40,026 bases of DNA from Acidobacteriota bacterium (lineage in GTDB: Bacteria; Acidobacteriota; Terriglobia; 20CM-2-55-15). A program made the position numbers and the translations under genes. This document shows positions 8,289 through 23,654 of the stretch, in pieces. The stretch spans positions 1-40,026 of the forward strand of contig JAJEEE010000015.1 in the NCBI GenBank assembly GCA_022821145.1. The letters run 5' to 3'. Under the pieces are notes generated by a model, which worked only from the letters and a program-made list of their open reading frames with translations, had not been told where the DNA came from and did no database searches. Every line of letters starts with the position of its first letter. Positions within the stretch are counted from its first letter, which is position 1.

Positions 8289-9365
8289 ATGGACGCTTCA
8301 CGCTACGCGAGATTCGCAATGACGACGGTCGGGATCGCCCTCCTGGCGACGACCGCTCTGCCCGGGCAACGGGGCGGCACTCCGGCGAGCGACCAGATCG
8401 AGCCCGTCAACAGCGGCGACAATCCCTACCGCGTCGTCCTCGACTGGGCGCAACTCGACCGGGAAGCCCGGCCGTGGGGCGGCTCGAACGGCGTCGACGT
8501 CGACCCGGACGGGGAGTCGGTCTGGGCCGTCGACCGCTGTTCACCCGGAATGACGCCGGGATGCGTCGACAGCCCCGCCAACCCGGTCCACCACTTCGAC
8601 GCGTCGGGGAACGAGATCCGCAGCTTCGGCGGCGGGATGTTCGTCTGGCCCCACGGCATCCACGTCGACGTGGACGGGAACGTGTGGGTCGCCGACGCCC
8701 GCGCCGACGGCGGCAAGGGCAGCGTGGTCGTCAAGTTCAGCCCCATGGGCGAAACGCTGCTGACGTTGGGAACGCCCGGCGTGCGCGGCGACCCGCCCGC
8801 GGCGCTGACGGATCCGACCGACGTCGTGACCGATCCGGACAACGGCGACGTCTACGTGGCGGAGAGCCATACCAACGTCGCCGATCCGGACCTGATCGGC
8901 CGCGTTTCCGTGTTCGATGCGGACGGAAACTTTCTCAGGGTGATCGGCAACACCGGCACCGGGCCCGGAGAGTTCCGCACGCCGCACGCGATCGAGTTCG
9001 ACTCCCAGGGGCGGCTCGTCGTCGCCGACCGCCACAACCATCGCATCCAGGTGCTGACCCGGGAGGGCGCCTTCATCCGGGAGTATCTGAACTTCGGGCG
9101 CGTCAGCGGCCTGGCCATCGACGCGAACGACGTCGTCTACGCCGCCGACTCGGAATCGAACGAACGCGTGCATCCCGGCTGGCAGCGGGGCATCCGGATC
9201 GGAAGCCTCGAGGACGGCGAAGTGACGGTGTTCATCCCCGCGCACGCGTCGAATTCTCCGGACGGTGCGATGGGCGAGGGCATCGCGATCGATCCCGCCG
9301 GCAACCTCTATACGGCGGAGGCGCAACTCCGCGGCGTCACCAAGTACGTTCGAAACGCGGACTGA
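8289..9365 (+). CDS. Exported NHL-repeat / peptidyl-alpha-hydroxyglycine lyase-like six-bladed beta-propeller
   Basis: This 358-residue protein has a signal peptide (residues 1 to about 27, ending TALPGQ). Repeated blades carry the NHL pattern: GVDVDPDGESVWAVDR, GIHVDVDGNVWVADAR, DVVTDPDNGDVYVAE, AIEFDSQGRLVVADRHNHR, GLAIDANDVVYAADS and GIAIDPAGNLYTAEA. This layout is shared with the lyase domain of peptidylglycine alpha-amidating enzymes and with bacterial propellers of unknown activity. The start has a clear GAGAGGAG ribosome site. It lies 13 bases after the VOC gene. Whether it is a lyase, lactonase or binding scaffold cannot be decided from the sequence. Confidence 0.82.
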   Translation: MDASRYARFAMTTVGIALLATTALPGQRGGTPASDQIEPVNSGDNPYRVVLDWAQLDREARPWGGSNGVDVDPDGESVWAVDRCSPGMTPGCVDSPANPVHHFDASGNEIRSFGGGMFVWPHGIHVDVDGNVWVADARADGGKGSVVVKFSPMGETLLTLGTPGVRGDPPAALTDPTDVVTDPDNGDVYVAESHTNVADPDLIGRVSVFDADGNFLRVIGNTGTGPGEFRTPHAIEFDSQGRLVVADRHNHRIQVLTREGAFIREYLNFGRVSGLAIDANDVVYAADSESNERVHPGWQRGIRIGSLEDGEVTVFIPAHASNSPDGAMGEGIAIDPAGNLYTAEAQLRGVTKYVRNAD

Positions 9366-9422
9366 TACCGGCGGATTACCCCGGCCCGATCGGCGATCGA
9401 ACGAGCGGCCCGTGCGCCCGGC

Positions 9423-10379
9423 TCACTCCAGGCCCAGGAAGCGGGCCGGGTTGCGCTTGGTCATGATGTCGATCTCTTCCTGGGTGAACCCGGCGTCCAC
9501 CAGGACTTCCAGGGCCATCTCGAAAGAGCGGGCGTGGTGCACCCGGTTGGGCTGTCCGAGATCGGACGTCAGCACGATGTTCTCGGGTCCGAGCTCCCGC
9601 ATGTCGTGCAGTTTCTGCGGCCCGAAATCCGCGACCGGGTTCTCGGTATCGACGTCGGCCGGACCGCCGCCCGTGAGCCCGTCGCCGCTGAGCACGACCT
9701 CGATCAGGGCGCCCATCTCGATCATCTCCCTCATCTGGGCAATGGACAGCGGAAGCCCCCCGTGGTTCGGGTGCTGCACGTAGATGTTCTCGACGCCGGC
9801 TTCCCGGGCCGCCTGGATCAGCAACAGGCATTCCTCCGGACTGATGTGCCCCGTGGACAGGCTCAGGTTGTTCTCCGCCATGATCTCGAGGACCTCGAGC
9901 ACTTCCGGCAGCAGCTCGCCGTTGCTCGAGACGCGGACCACGGTGGGCGAGTCCGGACGGCTGCGGTACTCCGCGTCGGTCGTCGGCATGTACACCACGC
10001 GGCCATGCCCGCCGCGCGACTTGGCCATCGCCTCGACGGCCACCGGGTTGATGCCGCCGACCGCGCGGTTCAGGACGATGCCGCCGTACAGTTCGATGCC
10101 GGGAACCATCTGGGACACCAGGTAGGCCCAGGACGCGGTCTCCACGTGGTGTTCCTTGAACACGACGCCCCTCATGCCGTAGAGCCGGGCGATCTGGGCC
10201 GCTTCGACCGCGTCGAAGGCGCGCCGGAAGTTCAGCATCGTCGTCTCCGGCGCCACGTGCAGGTGAAGGTCGATGATGCCCTCCAGGGACGGCGACTCAT
10301 CGGCTTGGGCGTTGGCCACGCCCGGCGCACCCGCCAGCGACGCCAGGACACCGCATAGGATCCATGTTCGCAATCTCAT
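9423..10379 (-). CDS. DUF6282-like exported amidohydrolase-fold protein
   Basis: This 318-residue protein has a signal peptide (about 1-24, ending VANAQA). Mature sequence begins with a metal-site motif IIDLHLHVAPET, followed by GMRGVVFKEHHVETASWAYL, STGHISPEE and VQHPNHGG, matching the histidine layout of DUF6282 and PHP/amidohydrolase TIM barrels. The ATG at 10379 is preceded by AGGAGCG, a good ribosome site. It is convergent with the NHL propeller gene (57 bases apart, no clear terminator hairpin). DUF6282 proteins have no firmly established reaction that I know of; hydrolysis of a small amide, ester or lactone is the general expectation. Confidence 0.75.
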   Translation of the reverse strand: MRLRTWILCGVLASLAGAPGVANAQADESPSLEGIIDLHLHVAPETTMLNFRRAFDAVEAAQIARLYGMRGVVFKEHHVETASWAYLVSQMVPGIELYGGIVLNRAVGGINPVAVEAMAKSRGGHGRVVYMPTTDAEYRSRPDSPTVVRVSSNGELLPEVLEVLEIMAENNLSLSTGHISPEECLLLIQAAREAGVENIYVQHPNHGGLPLSIAQMREMIEMGALIEVVLSGDGLTGGGPADVDTENPVADFGPQKLHDMRELGPENIVLTSDLGQPNRVHHARSFEMALEVLVDAGFTQEEIDIMTKRNPARFLGLE

Positions 10380-12766: not shown

Positions 12767-13246
12767 GTGAAGATCCGATCCGTCAAGGCCAACAACCGCC
12801 GGAAGGCTTTCGAGGTCGGAATCGCCCGGGGAACGCTGCCGTTTCCCTATTCGAAGTCGGAGCCCGTACCCGGCGCTTCCGACCCGGTCGTTCGAATCGC
12901 CGTCGACGAGGAACTCGCACGCGAAGCGTTTACCTACGTGACGGGCTCCGGCGAGGAAGGAACGGTCCACATCGAACAGGTTCTGGAATACAACCGGGAT
13001 CCGGACCACATGCGCGATGCGCTGCTCTACAGGCTGACGATCGAGGCTCAACGACGCATCGATGCCAGTCCGCTGTCCAAACGGGAGATCATCCGTCGGC
13101 TGGGCACGTCGGCGGCGCAGTTCTACCGTCTCCTGGATCCGACGAATTTCCGGACGTCGATCGACCAACTCCTGGCCTTGCTTCACGTTCTCGATTGCGA
13201 CGTCGATCTTGTCATCCGGGACAGGAACGATTCCGAAGCGGCATGA
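12767..13246 (+). CDS. XRE/HTH-type DNA-binding protein, antitoxin-like
   Basis: The 159-residue protein has an N-terminal beta-rich part (MKIRSVKANNRRKAFEVGI, then SGEEGTVHIEQVLEYN) and a C-terminal helix-turn-helix of about 65 residues: SPLSKREIIRRLGTSAAQFY followed by LLALLHVLDCDVDLVIRDR. This layout is seen in antitoxin-type regulators paired with small toxins. The start is GTG at 12767, forming a GTGA overlap with a 23-codon reading frame (12699-12770) that begins just after the palindrome. No intact toxin gene is visible upstream, so either that short frame is a leader peptide or a partner gene has been lost. Confidence 0.7.
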   Translation: MKIRSVKANNRRKAFEVGIARGTLPFPYSKSEPVPGASDPVVRIAVDEELAREAFTYVTGSGEEGTVHIEQVLEYNRDPDHMRDALLYRLTIEAQRRIDASPLSKREIIRRLGTSAAQFYRLLDPTNFRTSIDQLLALLHVLDCDVDLVIRDRNDSEAA

Positions 13247-13295
13247 CAGTGCGGGCGCCGGGAAACGCCGCAGCGTTCAGCGGAGGTCGCTACCC

Positions 13296-15047
13296 ATGAG
13301 ACAAGGTTTCACGATGCTTCCCGCGGCGAGCCTCGCCATCGTCCTGCTCGGTTCGGCGCACGGCGCCGGCCCGCAGTCCGACCTGTCCGCCTTGGGATCG
13401 CTGTCCGGGACCGTCACGGCGCCCGCTCCCTTCCAGGCCGCCCAGGTATTGATCCGGAACACGGACAACAACGTGCTGTACGGTGTGTACACCGCCGGCG
13501 GCCGCTACCGGGCCGTGGCCCTGATTCCCGGAACCTACCGGGTCACGGTGAAAAAGACCGGGTTTGCCGCGGATGCGCGAACAGTGGACATCCGCGCGGG
13601 CGCGACGGCGGTGCTCGACTTCGAGATGGTCGAGGGTGCGCCGACTCCGGAGCAGCAACCGATCTTCGGCGCCGGAGCGCGGGAGGACCTTGTTTACGTG
13701 ACGCGAGACGCCCTGTTCCCGCCCGGTCCGGGCCAGGACGCCGTCCGGCGGCATTGCTTCACATGCCACTCCGAGAGCTTCTTCGGTCTGCGGCAGCAGG
13801 ACGAAGGGCGGTGGAACACGACCGTCGACAACATGGTCGGCGCCGGCTATCTCGACGCGATCCCCCAACCGGAACGGTCCGAGCTGGTCGGTTACCTGAC
13901 GCGGAACTACGGGCCGGACAGCGTCAGACGCGCCGTCGAACCGGACTTCCCGCTCGACGAGGACGCGCTGGGCCGGGCGATGTACGTCGAGTACTACCTG
14001 CCCCTCGGCCCGGACGCCCGTCCCCGCCGGTCCCAGGAACCCCAGATCGACTACGACGGCAACGTCTGGTTCACCGAGCGGAGCGATCCCAACATGGTCG
14101 GCGTGGTCGATCCTCGAACCGGGGCGGTGACCGACTATCCCCTTCCGGACCCCGAAGGCGACCCCCACGGGCTGACCGTGGACGCGGACGGCCACGTGTG
14201 GTGGGCCGAGACCGACGGGTGGCACCTGGGACGGCTCGACCCGGCAACGGGCGAGATGACGCGCTACAGCCTGACGCCGGACGACGACCCGGAACTGTTG
14301 GGCCGAGGGCACACGCCCGTGCTGGATTCGGAAGACAACGTCTGGGTCTCGGTCCGGGACATGGTCCGGGGCGGGACCGGGGTCACCGGCGTGTTCGGCC
14401 GCGGCGGCACCGGGGGCGGCGTCGACGAACCCCGGGACGGCATCGCCAAGTGGGACCGCGCCACGGAAACGGTCTCGGTCTACTTCCATCCCACGCCCGG
14501 CTCGCGCCCCTACGGCATGCTCGTCGATGGGAACGACCACGTCTGGACGGCATTGAGCCAGGGTTGCGGCGTCGCCCGTTTCGAGCCGGCCACCGAGACG
14601 TGGACGGACTTCCTCTCGCCGACGGGCAACAACTGCCAGGTGCGGCGCCTGGGCGTCGATTCCTCCGGCGCCACCGTCTGGTACGGCATCTGGTCGGGGG
14701 GCGGACGGCTGGGCAAGGTCGACGTGGCGACCGGGGACATCGTCGAGTACGACGTCCCGATGCCGGACGCCCAACCGTACGACACGTGGGTCGACGGCGA
14801 GGATCGGGTCTGGATTTCCGACGGGGGACAGGGCGGCGCGCTCATCCGGTTCGATCCCGAAACGGAAGATTGGACGTACTACCCGAGTCCCCAGATCACC
14901 GACATGCCGAAGCTCGCGATCGGCGGCAACGGCGCCGTCTGGTATTGTCCGCGATCCTCGGCCAACGCCGCGGTCGGGGTCCTGTACCCGGACATGTCCC
15001 GGATCACGTCGCTGGAGGCCGTGCGGCCCCTGGAAGACTGGCGTTAG
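13296..15047 (+). CDS. Exported carboxypeptidase-regulatory / cytochrome c-motif / virginiamycin B lyase-like propeller protein
   Basis: This protein of about 583 residues has a signal peptide (1 to about 24). Three modules follow: a carboxypeptidase-regulatory-like beta-sandwich (about 32-115; SGTVTAPAPF, GTYRVTVKKTGFA); a short region with one c-type heme motif CFTCH (about residues 155-159); and a seven-bladed Vgb-like propeller with repeats such as IDYDGNVWFTERSDPNMVG and LTVDADGHVWWAET. I chose ATG 13296 because it gives the signal peptide; the frame itself stays open further upstream over the HTH gene. It may be an electron-accepting periplasmic lyase or sensor; no distal heme ligand can be assigned. 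Confidence 0.8.
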   Translation: MRQGFTMLPAASLAIVLLGSAHGAGPQSDLSALGSLSGTVTAPAPFQAAQVLIRNTDNNVLYGVYTAGGRYRAVALIPGTYRVTVKKTGFAADARTVDIRAGATAVLDFEMVEGAPTPEQQPIFGAGAREDLVYVTRDALFPPGPGQDAVRRHCFTCHSESFFGLRQQDEGRWNTTVDNMVGAGYLDAIPQPERSELVGYLTRNYGPDSVRRAVEPDFPLDEDALGRAMYVEYYLPLGPDARPRRSQEPQIDYDGNVWFTERSDPNMVGVVDPRTGAVTDYPLPDPEGDPHGLTVDADGHVWWAETDGWHLGRLDPATGEMTRYSLTPDDDPELLGRGHTPVLDSEDNVWVSVRDMVRGGTGVTGVFGRGGTGGGVDEPRDGIAKWDRATETVSVYFHPTPGSRPYGMLVDGNDHVWTALSQGCGVARFEPATETWTDFLSPTGNNCQVRRLGVDSSGATVWYGIWSGGGRLGKVDVATGDIVEYDVPMPDAQPYDTWVDGEDRVWISDGGQGGALIRFDPETEDWTYYPSPQITDMPKLAIGGNGAVWYCPRSSANAAVGVLYPDMSRITSLEAVRPLEDWR

Positions 15048-19409: not shown

Positions 19410-21968
19410 ATGGGCACAGACAGTGGACAACTCGTCAGCGGTGACCTTCGTTCGGAGGTCACGGCCGCAACGCTTCTGGATCGTCTCGACTTGGCACGAT
19501 TGGAGACGTCATGCCGCATCGCGACTGACCCCGAGCGCCGCGCCAATCTCGGTCAGTTCTTTACCCCATCCCACGTGGCCCGTTTCATGGCGGCCATGTT
19601 GCGAAATCCCAGCCCACCGAACGAATTCCGCCTGCTCGACGCGGGCGCCGGAAACGGAATACTCACCGCCGCAGTCGCCACGGAACTCTCCACGCGACCT
19701 CCGGCATCGCGTCCGAATGCCTTGAACGCAACGGTTTGGGAGATCGACGAACGGCTTGTTCCCGACCTCAACGGCACGTTGAAACATTGCCGTACTGTCT
19801 GTGAGACTGCGGGAATCCGGTTCACGGCATCCATACGCCGGGAGAACTTCGTCCTCGCGGCCACAGGTCTGGTCGACAACGGCGAACTCTTTCCGGACCA
19901 TGAGAGTCCTCGTTTCGACGCCGCCATTCTGAACCCGCCATACCGCAAGCTCTCCAGCGAAAGCATCGAACGCGGAGTCCTGCGTTCAGTCGGAATCGAA
20001 ACCAGCAACCTCTACTCCGCATTCGTTTGGCTGGCAATGAAGCTGTTGGACGACGGTGGCGAGCTCGTGGCGATCACGCCGCGCAGCTTCATGAACGGGA
20101 CGTACTTTCGCCGATTCCGCCGCGCGCTGACCCGCGAATTGTCGTTACGCCGCATTCACGTCTATGACGCCCGCGACGCGGCTTTCGCCGGCGACTCGGT
20201 GCTCCAGGAGAACGTCATCTATCACGGGGTCCGGAGGGGAACGCAAGAGCAGGTGAGAATCACCACTTCGTTCGGTCCCACCGACGCGGGACTCGCGGAA
20301 CGCACTGTCGATCGGACCGAACTGACTCTCCCCGACGATCCAGCCTGCATGCTGCATGTCGTACCCGACGGGCTAGACGCGCGTATAGCAGAGCGGATGC
20401 GATCGTTGCCCCAGACGCTAGCGAGCCTTGGCGTTCGCGTCTCCACGGGCCGCGTCGTCTGTTTCCGGGTTCGGGAGCGACTGCGTGCAAAGGCCGGCGA
20501 GGGAGACGCCCCACTGATCATGCCCCGTCATTTCGCCCAGGGATTCGTGTCGTGGCCCGACGGGTCCGGCTCGAAACCGAACGCATTGGCGGTATCGGAT
20601 CCTTGTGACGACCTTCTGTTGCCGGCCGGTTGGTATGTCCTGATCCGCCGCTTCAGCGCGAAGGAAGAAAGGCGGCGCGTCGTCGCCGCTATCTACGATC
20701 CGACGCGCGTGGATGCAAGCGCGGTTGCCTTCGACAACAAGCTGAATGTGTTGCACGGCGGCGAGGCCGGCCTGTCGGAAGAGTTGGCCAGGGGGCTTGC
20801 GGTCTTTCTGAACAGTACGGTGATCGACGCGTACTTCCGGCAGTTCAGCGGCCACACGCAAGTCAACGCCGAAGACTTGCGGTCGCTCCGCTTTCCGACT
20901 TCAAGCGACCTCGCGCGCCTCGGGCACCGAATCATGCAGTCGATGCCCACTCAGGACGAAATCGACCGACTCGTCCGAGAGGAGATTCCCGAAATGAAGG
21001 AAGGTGATGACCCGGCCGCCGCGAAACGACGGGTCCAAGCCGCCCAAACGATCTTGCAAGAGCTGGGAGCACCGAAGGAACAGTCCAATGAGCGGTCGGC
21101 CCTGACCCTGCTCGCACTGCTCGACCTTGCCCCAACGGCGCCCTGGTCCGAAGCCCAAGCGCCACTCCGCGGCGTCACGGAACTCATGGGCTGGATCGCC
21201 GACAACTATCTCAAGCAATACGCGCCCAATACCCGGGAGACGATTCGCCGTTTCACGCTCCATCAGTTCATCCAGATGGGTCTGGTCGTCCTCAATCCGG
21301 ATGAGCCCGAACGGCCGCCGAACAGCCCGAGAAACGTCTATCAGATCGAAGCCTCCGTGTTAGAACTCTTGCGGAGCGTCGAAACGGAGGCGTGGAAGCG
21401 CAACCTCGCGACCTATCTCATAGAGATGAAAGGGGTAAACCGGCTTCGCGAAACGCTGCGCCGAACGGAATACATCCCTGTGAATCTCCCGGACGGTGAG
21501 TCGATCGAACTCACAGCCGGCGGCCAGAACGTGCTTGTCAAGGAGATTGTCGAGCAGTTCGCGCCACGCTTCACGCCCGACGGTTACGTGATCTATGTTG
21601 GCGACACGGGTGAGAAGCACCTGTTCTTCGACGACCAATACCTGCGTCGCTTGGGCGTCGAAATCGACCGACATGGCAAAATGCCGGATGTCGTCATCCA
21701 CCACGTCGAGCACGACTGGCTCGTGCTCATCGAGGCCGTCACCTCGCACGGGCCCGTAAACCGTCTGCGTCATAACCAACTCATGGACCTCTTCGCCGGC
21801 TCGACTTCCGGGCTGGTTTTCGTGACGGCGTTCCTCGATCGGACAGCGATGCGCGAATACCTGCCCGAGATCGCGTGGGAAACCGAAGTATGGGTCGCCG
21901 ATGCTCCCGATCACCTCATCCATTTCAACGGCGAACGCTTCCTCGGTCCGCACGGGGGCGACGAGTAG
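19410..21968 (+). CDS. Fused adenine-N6 methyltransferase and BsuBI/PstI-type restriction endonuclease
   Basis: This 852-residue single-chain restriction-modification protein has two parts. The N-terminal half is a gamma-class N6-adenine methyltransferase: motif X GQFFTPSHVARFM (49-61), SAM motif I LLDAGAGNG (75-83) and catalytic motif IV NPPY (175-178), with target-recognition sequence to about 520. The C-terminal part matches the BsuBI/PstI endonuclease: the helical N-domain from about residue 560 (NERSALTLLALLDLAPTAPW, then NTRETIRRFTLHQFI), and the nuclease domain with PDVVIHH (D760) and LVLIEAVTSHG (E775). In the BsuBI and PstI systems I know, these are separate proteins. The linker (EEIPEMKEGDDPAAAKRRV) is smooth and has no stop. 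Both active sites look intact. Confidence 0.88.
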   Translation: MGTDSGQLVSGDLRSEVTAATLLDRLDLARLETSCRIATDPERRANLGQFFTPSHVARFMAAMLRNPSPPNEFRLLDAGAGNGILTAAVATELSTRPPASRPNALNATVWEIDERLVPDLNGTLKHCRTVCETAGIRFTASIRRENFVLAATGLVDNGELFPDHESPRFDAAILNPPYRKLSSESIERGVLRSVGIETSNLYSAFVWLAMKLLDDGGELVAITPRSFMNGTYFRRFRRALTRELSLRRIHVYDARDAAFAGDSVLQENVIYHGVRRGTQEQVRITTSFGPTDAGLAERTVDRTELTLPDDPACMLHVVPDGLDARIAERMRSLPQTLASLGVRVSTGRVVCFRVRERLRAKAGEGDAPLIMPRHFAQGFVSWPDGSGSKPNALAVSDPCDDLLLPAGWYVLIRRFSAKEERRRVVAAIYDPTRVDASAVAFDNKLNVLHGGEAGLSEELARGLAVFLNSTVIDAYFRQFSGHTQVNAEDLRSLRFPTSSDLARLGHRIMQSMPTQDEIDRLVREEIPEMKEGDDPAAAKRRVQAAQTILQELGAPKEQSNERSALTLLALLDLAPTAPWSEAQAPLRGVTELMGWIADNYLKQYAPNTRETIRRFTLHQFIQMGLVVLNPDEPERPPNSPRNVYQIEASVLELLRSVETEAWKRNLATYLIEMKGVNRLRETLRRTEYIPVNLPDGESIELTAGGQNVLVKEIVEQFAPRFTPDGYVIYVGDTGEKHLFFDDQYLRRLGVEIDRHGKMPDVVIHHVEHDWLVLIEAVTSHGPVNRLRHNQLMDLFAGSTSGLVFVTAFLDRTAMREYLPEIAWETEVWVADAPDHLIHFNGERFLGPHGGDE

Positions 21969-22057: not shown

Positions 22058-22627
22058 ATGCCCACTCGGCAACGAAGCTCACGAGAAACCATCACGCTGT
22101 CGTGGGAAATGCGAGATGATGCATGGAGCCATTGGACGCAAGGCCGCGGCCCACAATCAGTCAGAGACGTCATCCTCGAACGGGTTCGTCAGGTTTCAAA
22201 GAATGCTGACGCGGCTAAGGCCGCTAGAGAACGCTGCAACGCCGTGGTGCAAGCAGCCCACGCTGAACAAGGCACGGTTGTTGTCCCGAGCCACAAGATC
22301 GAGATTCAACTCCCCTCGCATGAATGGGCCAATGCATGCGAACGAGTTGGACGAATCGACGGCAACGCAGTCGGAACTAGCCAGCTTCTCGCAGCCTTGA
22401 TTCTTGAGAGCGAGAGTTGGCGACAACACGGAGACGACGCGTCCAAGTACGACGCCGGATGGAACGAAGATTCGCTTGTTTCATCCCTAAATTCGCTTAC
22501 CGCCACTACTGCGGGACTCAGTCTGGCAAGGACGGAAAAGAGACTGGCTTGGGTCGTCGCTGTTGCTGCCGCGGTTTCCGCGGCATCCACCGTCGCTATC
22601 GCAATCGCCACATGGTGTAAGCCTTGA
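22058..22627 (+). CDS. Unknown protein with C-terminal membrane anchor, in the R-M island
   Basis: This 189-residue protein matches no family I recognise. The first 150 residues are hydrophilic and mostly helical (SVRDVILERVRQVSKNADAA), with possible coiled-coil segments. A single transmembrane helix lies near the C-terminus (WVVAVAAAVSAASTVAIAIA, about 165-184), followed by WCKP. The predicted topology is a tail-anchored protein facing the cytoplasm. It lies 89 bases after the R-M fusion and 88 bases before the DUF4238 gene, on the same strand. Base composition here is visibly less GC-rich than the flanks. A membrane-linked accessory or effector of the defence island is speculation. Confidence 0.6.
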   Translation: MPTRQRSSRETITLSWEMRDDAWSHWTQGRGPQSVRDVILERVRQVSKNADAAKAARERCNAVVQAAHAEQGTVVVPSHKIEIQLPSHEWANACERVGRIDGNAVGTSQLLAALILESESWRQHGDDASKYDAGWNEDSLVSSLNSLTATTAGLSLARTEKRLAWVVAVAAAVSAASTVAIAIATWCKP

Positions 22628-22715: not shown

Positions 22716-23654
22716 ATGAGTATCGCCAGAAGACACCATTATGTTCCGAAAGGCTATCTCGCAGGATTCACCGATGACGGCACGCGAAACGGTAAGCTCA
22801 CCGTGTTTGACCTCAAGTCACGGAAAATCTTTAGGACAAGCCCTGCAAACGTAGCGTCGATGCGCGACTTCAATCGAGTCGATCTCGATGGCCTCCCCCC
22901 CGACTTTGTAGAGCGAGAACTAGGTGACTTCGAGGGCAAGGCGATTTCATCTATTCGCCAGATTCAGGCGCGAGGGGAACCGATGACGGACGACGAACGG
23001 TCAGACATCGTCACCCTGATCACGCTACTGATCGTTCGCAATCCGCGGCGCCGTCGAGAGATCAGTGACTTTCGTAGACGGGCGGTCCGTGGCATCCTTG
23101 ATCCTCTTGCCTCGGATCGGGACCTGTACGAACATCACTTCGCGAATGCCAAACGCGACGGTTCTCTTCCTGAAGACGCGGAACTGAAATTTGAAGACGC
23201 AGCCGAGTTTATCGAATCGGATAGCTACGATGTCGAGGTCAGTACGACTGAGAGCATCTCGTTGGAACTCGGTGGCTTCGACAACATTTTTGAGACCCTT
23301 GCTTCCCGCTGGTGGTCACTGGCCGTCGCCGACACGGGGGCTCCAGAGTTTGTCACCAGCGATCACCCGGTTGCGGTTGTGTACAAGGACCCGACCAAGC
23401 GTGGGCCCATCGGATTTGGTCTGCCTTATACCGAGGTGTCGTTTCCGTTGGGTCCGAGGCACGCTGTGATCGGAGTTCTCGAAAAACCATTACCACCGCG
23501 ATTCACGGTGCTCGTTAACGGAGTAGCGGTCCTGAACAGCCGCACCGTGTATTGGGCGGACCGCCAAGTTTACTCCACGTCCCGGCGTGTTTCGATTCTC
23601 AAGTCAGACGGCGTCGTCGAATTCGATGTACGTCGTTATCGACAAGATCAGTAG
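22716..23654 (+). CDS. DUF4238-family protein
   Basis: This 312-residue cytoplasmic protein begins with the DUF4238 signature RRHHYVPKGYLAGF and continues with FDLKSRKIFRTSPANVASM and DFNRVDLDGLPPDFVERELG. The later motif FVTSDHPVAVV, with a conserved Asp-His, is also typical. DUF4238 has no established reaction that I know of; members are often scattered in accessory regions and some have been placed in or near defence islands. The conserved HHYVP start and SDHP loop could form a metal or catalytic site. AT-richer composition and its position after an R-M gene suggest horizontal transfer. Confidence 0.85.
   Translation: MSIARRHHYVPKGYLAGFTDDGTRNGKLTVFDLKSRKIFRTSPANVASMRDFNRVDLDGLPPDFVERELGDFEGKAISSIRQIQARGEPMTDDERSDIVTLITLLIVRNPRRRREISDFRRRAVRGILDPLASDRDLYEHHFANAKRDGSLPEDAELKFEDAAEFIESDSYDVEVSTTESISLELGGFDNIFETLASRWWSLAVADTGAPEFVTSDHPVAVVYKDPTKRGPIGFGLPYTEVSFPLGPRHAVIGVLEKPLPPRFTVLVNGVAVLNSRTVYWADRQVYSTSRRVSILKSDGVVEFDVRRYRQDQ

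Follow-up and report, generated by a model that had tools for sequence, protein, structure and literature searches.

A predicted methyltransferase-endonuclease fusion of the PstI/BsuBI family with a conserved candidate internal start for the endonuclease

In a restriction system protection has to be in place before cutting begins, and the known ways of balancing the endonuclease (R) against the methyltransferase (M) include C proteins, MTase repressors, promoters and antisense RNA. How might this balance be set at a locus where the two enzymes lie in a single reading frame? We address this question for one gene in a 40,026-nt stretch of DNA from an Acidobacteriota bacterium (contig JAJEEE010000015.1; hereafter the window), in which an earlier note had described a PstI/BsuBI-type endonuclease fused to its MTase and had reasoned, rightly, that such a fusion must alter the balance between R and M. 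That note missed a conserved internal Shine-Dalgarno (SD) sequence and start codon at the seam of the two halves, which predict a separate endonuclease chain. This conserved internal start is the new part of the present analysis and suggests a separate cutter.

A Pfam search of the stop-free ORF (Table 1) identified the Eco57I MTase domain PF07669 (residues 155-253, 5e-13) and both domains of BsuBI/PstI endonucleases, PF17728 (1.7e-47) and PF06616 (5.9e-63), the two profiles with which the earlier note had proposed to check the fusion. The motifs that it had read from the translation are also in place, namely motif X (in the region LGQFFTP), LLDAGAGNG (motif I), NPPY (motif IV), NERSALTLLALLDL and PDVVI...LIEAVTSHG. 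In the alignment the M half has the order X-I-IV(NPPY)-TRD of gamma-class N6-adenine MTases, and its motif columns are invariant across 17 fused relatives. The R half (residues ~529-852) contains PF17728 followed by PF06616, both at full length, as expected of the BsuBI/PstI family, and its residues 540-848 align end to end and across both domains with residues 12-321 of SdaI (PDB 2IXS; E 1e-79, about 43% identity), although SdaI is a separate protein whereas R is here fused behind M. Judged by conservation alone, candidate catalytic residues of the nuclease include PD760 and E775, which are invariant in the 17 fused relatives, and the third motif position, usually Lys, is Val throughout (E-A-V or E-S-V). 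In an AlphaFold model of the fused protein built from 38 sequences (mean pLDDT 85), the C-terminal part matches the fold of SdaI and the N-terminal part those of CamA, M.BseCI and M.TaqI; a model built from 3 sequences (pLDDT 33) was set aside. By sequence and modelled fold, then, the gene is a gamma-class N6-adenine MTase continuous with a full-length SdaI/PstI-type endonuclease.

Table 1. Features of the fused gene and its seam (window coordinates)
Feature	Position	Strand	Remarks
Fused M-R gene	19410..21968	+	852 aa, stop codon included; stop-free over 852 codons
Methyltransferase half, residues ~18-530	19461..20999	+	PADLOC PDLC03227 match 26-530
NPPY catalytic motif, residues 175-178	19932..19943	+	invariant in 17 fused proteins
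BsuBI/PstI REase N-terminal helix-turn-helix domain PF17728, residues 540-674	21027..21431	+	Pfam
BsuBI/PstI REase catalytic domain PF06616, residues 689-842, with PD760 ... E775	21474..21935	+	Pfam
Putative internal Shine-Dalgarno GAGAGGAG, core AGGAG 20980-20984	20977..20984	+	anti-SD energy -8.4
Putative internal in-frame start codon ATG (M529), 9 nt past SD	20994..20996	+	aligns to SdaI residue 1
Predicted free restriction endonuclease, 324 aa (SdaI chain 323 aa)	20994..21968	+	inferred from internal start; domain content

Plasmids normally carry two-gene forms of this family with M and R separate, as the earlier note said of the systems known to it, and the fused frame might be an artefactual merge of two genes through an assembly or frameshift error, for instance at 20.9-21.1 kb, where that note had placed its refutation. 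The relatives speak against such a join. A sister genome from a separate assembly (L003/L005, 99.5% identity) has the same uninterrupted frame, as have other Acidobacteriota species at 72-73% identity (L002, L004/L019, L072) and, at 43-54% identity, about 15 further lineages (L006-L009, L020-L022, L047-L052, L085). Three more fused lineages come from IMG/VR contigs (L086, L087, L128; G+C 33-44%). The relatives are mostly metagenome-assembled genomes, and outside the window's phylum the search covered plasmid, phage and IMG/VR collections; among viral contigs a single-protein query returned no relative and an alignment query returned 43. These independent genomes and many lineages refute an artefact, whose probability we regard as practically nil.

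Two observations on individual relatives may be added. Genome G224 carries two diverged fused R-M copies (L022 and L085), possibly of different specificities. A 69% identical copy (L046, in G715, contig C15) has an in-frame TAG in its R part, downstream of the internal start, and its N-terminal ~110 residues are not recognisable; it was excluded as a decayed copy.

The fused architecture is already represented in two profile collections. PADLOC model PDLC03359 (840 aa) extends over residues 18-848 and is matched by 17/17 aligned fused proteins, and phrog_1639 of PHROGs (838 aa) covers residues 44-848. Both span the two halves, but their labels say no more than 'Type II methyltransferase' or 'restriction endonuclease', with no remark on the fusion or on an internal start. 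Automatic annotation therefore hides the fusion, because one profile labels the whole protein a methyltransferase. In the open-access literature we found no description of a naturally occurring M-R fusion in the BsuBI/PstI family.

By reading frame, REase and MTase would share one polypeptide, which would place the protein among combined (type IIC) enzymes; there is no stop between M and R as in a classical two-gene type IIP system, although the R start is kept. The earlier note had further suggested that the fusion could act like a type IIG enzyme, with the nuclease using the recognition domain of the methyltransferase and cutting at a distance. A nuclease and a gamma-class MTase do share one chain here, as MTase and REase domains do in the type IIG/IIC enzymes Eco57I, MmeI and BpuSI, but those enzymes have an N-terminal nuclease, a TRD shared with the methyltransferase and remote cleavage (PMC4081073). 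Here the domain order is the opposite: the nuclease is C-terminal, of full length and, like SdaI, equipped with its own winged-helix domain, while the M half has a TRD of its own. Moreover, the generic MTase core is all that any IIG model matches (PDLC03600, E 1.8e-4). A type IIG-like mode of action is consequently very improbable, and this part of the earlier proposal was not borne out.

What, then, is kept at the seam? The ATG at this point corresponds in position to the start of the separate R gene in two-gene relatives, with residue 540 aligned to SdaI residue 12, and most fused relatives likewise have an in-frame start there with AGGAG or AGGAGG about 9 nt upstream. We ranked all in-frame internal ATG, GTG and TTG codons of each fused ORF by anti-SD energy. 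The seam start ranked first in 14/19 fused ORFs, among 24-55 candidates each, and in the window it is the first of 46; energies of -7 or below occur at only 5.3% of 850 in-frame internal starts. Elsewhere it ranked third (L051), sixth (L007) or ninth (L052, with a weak SD), ranked poorly in L006, which has an ATG but lacks an SD, and was absent from L009, which has no internal start. Combining the seam ranks of 13 representatives by Fisher's method gives 4e-5, a figure to be taken only as a guide because the representatives share ancestry. The SD-start region of the window is also fairly accessible (rank 5 of 46). At the seam the three IMG/VR lineages have retained ATG or TTG behind an SD of the AGGA/GGAG type, and AT-rich fused relatives have moderate SDs only. 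A promoter and terminator scan gave no signal at the seam and detected no internal promoter of the sigma-70-like kind.

TTG is a usual bacterial start codon. In seven fused genes the start position encodes Leu, and the codon is TTG in 7/7, whereas at 55 other Leu columns common to these genes TTG is used in at most 3/7; the product of the TTG usages is about 1e-5. The seven genes form one clade, so TTG here amounts to a single choice preserved over a long time and does not count seven times. Nevertheless, as the control columns show, a Leu codon free of selection would be expected to vary at the genes' mutual divergence.

These patterns bear on whether the protein might simply be a natural type IIC fusion that is made only as full-length M-R, with the SD and start at the seam being a relic or a by-product of the Glu-Glu and Met/Leu residues encoded there. 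Consistent with such a by-product, shuffling of synonymous codons gave only a modest result for the SD, weak per gene given the amino acids (combined p about 0.01, 0.011), because conserved Glu-Glu codons yield GAGGAG for free. L006 and L009 manage without an internal start signal, and an engineered R-M fusion of Eco29kI is fully functional as one chain (PMC3039593). However, the start codon survives the Met/Leu change and is accompanied by varied SD residues (EE, KE, QE, RR and GR): in L022 the SD is formed by two Arg codons (AGG AGG; synonymous null p=0.013) and in L085 by Gly-Arg codons (GGG AGG), so that the residues change and the SD stays. Together with the constancy of TTG and the first rank of the seam start in 14 of the 19 genes, this makes a plain full-length fusion quite unlikely, and the TTG control led us to drop a mere relic as the main reading. 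SD and start thus appear conserved beyond what the protein demands, by the TTG control and the ranking, with the SD null at p about 0.01. We regard this as good evidence for selection on seam initiation in most fused lineages.

The two-gene BsuBI/PstI-type homologues on plasmids and prophages are homologous to M and R over their full lengths and have the same order, M first and then R, often with a four-base overlap (e.g. ATGA). They differ from the fused genes in that R and M lie in different frames at the split loci examined and in that the SDs of R are mostly weak (median -3.9; -7 or below in 7/27), compared with one frame and a strong internal SD here. Weak SDs at split R genes would fit a start by termination coupling. 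In four hand-read split loci (L023, L053, L025, L054) the spacer between SD and start is 10 or 8 nt as against 9 (or 12) in fused genes, and because this difference is of one base, gain or loss of a single nucleotide there would switch a locus between fused and split.

Trees of the concatenated M and R sequences, obtained by quick searches, place all fused genes among 78 loci inside one supported 58-row clade. A single clade of fused genes was rejected (AU p 2.4e-5, 75-row set), and four fused/split changes are needed within the 58-row clade, for example one old fusion followed by three re-splits, one of which would found a 31-row clade that includes proteobacterial plasmid systems. The alignment of the fused linkers reveals a common motif, xPVxAKKKI, which favours one fusion; repeated fusion is a possible alternative.

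Might the working nuclease then be only the free REase from the internal start, with the fusion a tolerated by-product of a shared frame in which M activity alone matters? That the fused or split state can hang on a 1-nt indel, that it has changed repeatedly, as a near-neutral switch would, and that the R start with its SD is the part that stays all speak for this. However, the R domain is intact in both L009, from which the internal start has been lost, and L006, where it probably has been, so that the fusion must carry R there, and the linker motif is shared by fused proteins across deep divergence. We therefore consider a by-product rather unlikely, and prefer a reading in which both the fusion and the free endonuclease have a role.

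Upstream of the fused gene lies a phenylacetate-CoA-ligase-like gene and downstream a 189-aa ORF followed by a DUF4238 gene; no C-protein-like gene was seen beside the fused R-M gene. The 189-aa ORF (22058-22627) has no family match and a hydrophobic C-terminus that is possibly a membrane anchor. The DUF4238 gene, two genes downstream of the fusion (22716-23654; PF14022, PADLOC 'DUF4238-Pers', phrog_29785), belongs to an uncharacterised family that is among the listed defence candidates. In one relative a GmrSD-type restriction gene (L004:9682-12213) lies near the fused gene and in another (L002) a ParA-like gene at 8906-9547 takes its place, so the surroundings are not conserved. Farther off in the window, 13062-15047 encodes a 661-aa protein with carboxypeptidase-regulatory and Vgb-lyase-like beta-propeller repeats.

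We consider it moderately probable that this one gene, a solitary type II R-M gene of the SdaI/PstI family, gives two products, an M-R fusion and a free REase, and that the R:M ratio is set by translation starts and by dimerisation of R. Translation from 19410 would yield a ~95-kDa fusion able to methylate the site, with the endonuclease tethered to it, and translation from the internal ATG behind its SD would yield a free ~37-kDa SdaI-like endonuclease. In the window the SD of the annotated M start (-3.3) is weaker than the seam SD, and free R may thus be produced efficiently; the two lineages that lack an internal start signal imply that the fusion alone can be enough in their case. Gamma-class MTases act as monomers, and most palindrome cutters act as dimers. 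The fusion would thus protect the host as a monomeric MTase, and on palindromes that lack methylation, probably CTGCAG or CCTGCAGG, free R and the R-bearing fusion would assemble into dimers that cleave. Because a monomeric MTase is paired with a dimeric cutter, low amounts would favour methylation, and cutting would follow as R-containing chains accumulate and dimerise. With two initiation rates on one gene and dimerisation of R, setting the R:M ratio would require neither a C protein nor separate promoters. CTGCAG occurs 9 times in the window against 6.55 expected and is thus not depleted there, a comparison to which 40 kb lends little power. Control by assembly has been argued for combined enzymes (PMC12707154). 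In this scheme the single frame, the two complete predicted domains and the conserved putative SD and start are established by the comparison of the genes, and from them we infer that both proteins are made, that both activities are present, and the specificity and regulation by dimer assembly.

As a precedent, the two-gene type IIP system Eco29kI has been engineered into one functional chain, and retaining the start codon of the downstream gene gave that gene's enzyme in free form instead of the fusion (PMC3039593). Like the present gene, RM.Eco29kI unites a two-gene palindrome-cutting system in one chain (type IIC/P); unlike it, RM.Eco29kI is man-made, has the order R-M, a GIY-YIG nuclease and an m5C MTase, and had its seam start codon removed. 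Internal initiation also produces McrBS (PMC12707154) and Cas11b (PMC11899642), in which, as proposed here, the C-terminal part of a defence protein is made from an internal start as well, except that those short forms are a modulator or a structural subunit, whereas here the short form would be the nuclease itself.

It is also possible, though we propose it only tentatively, that such a nested R-M gene, giving an M-R fusion and free R from a selected internal site, is an old arrangement from which the widespread two-gene PstI-type systems on proteobacterial plasmids were re-split, with one-base spacer indels toggling between the two states. The Eco29kI authors predicted natural equivalents of their fusion and had BsuBI among the candidate gene layouts (PMC3039593); if our reading is true, the gene described here would be a natural counterpart of the kind they predicted. 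Two translation starts within one gene would then encode the balance of R and M, and the gene for the nuclease would lie nested within that of its antidote.
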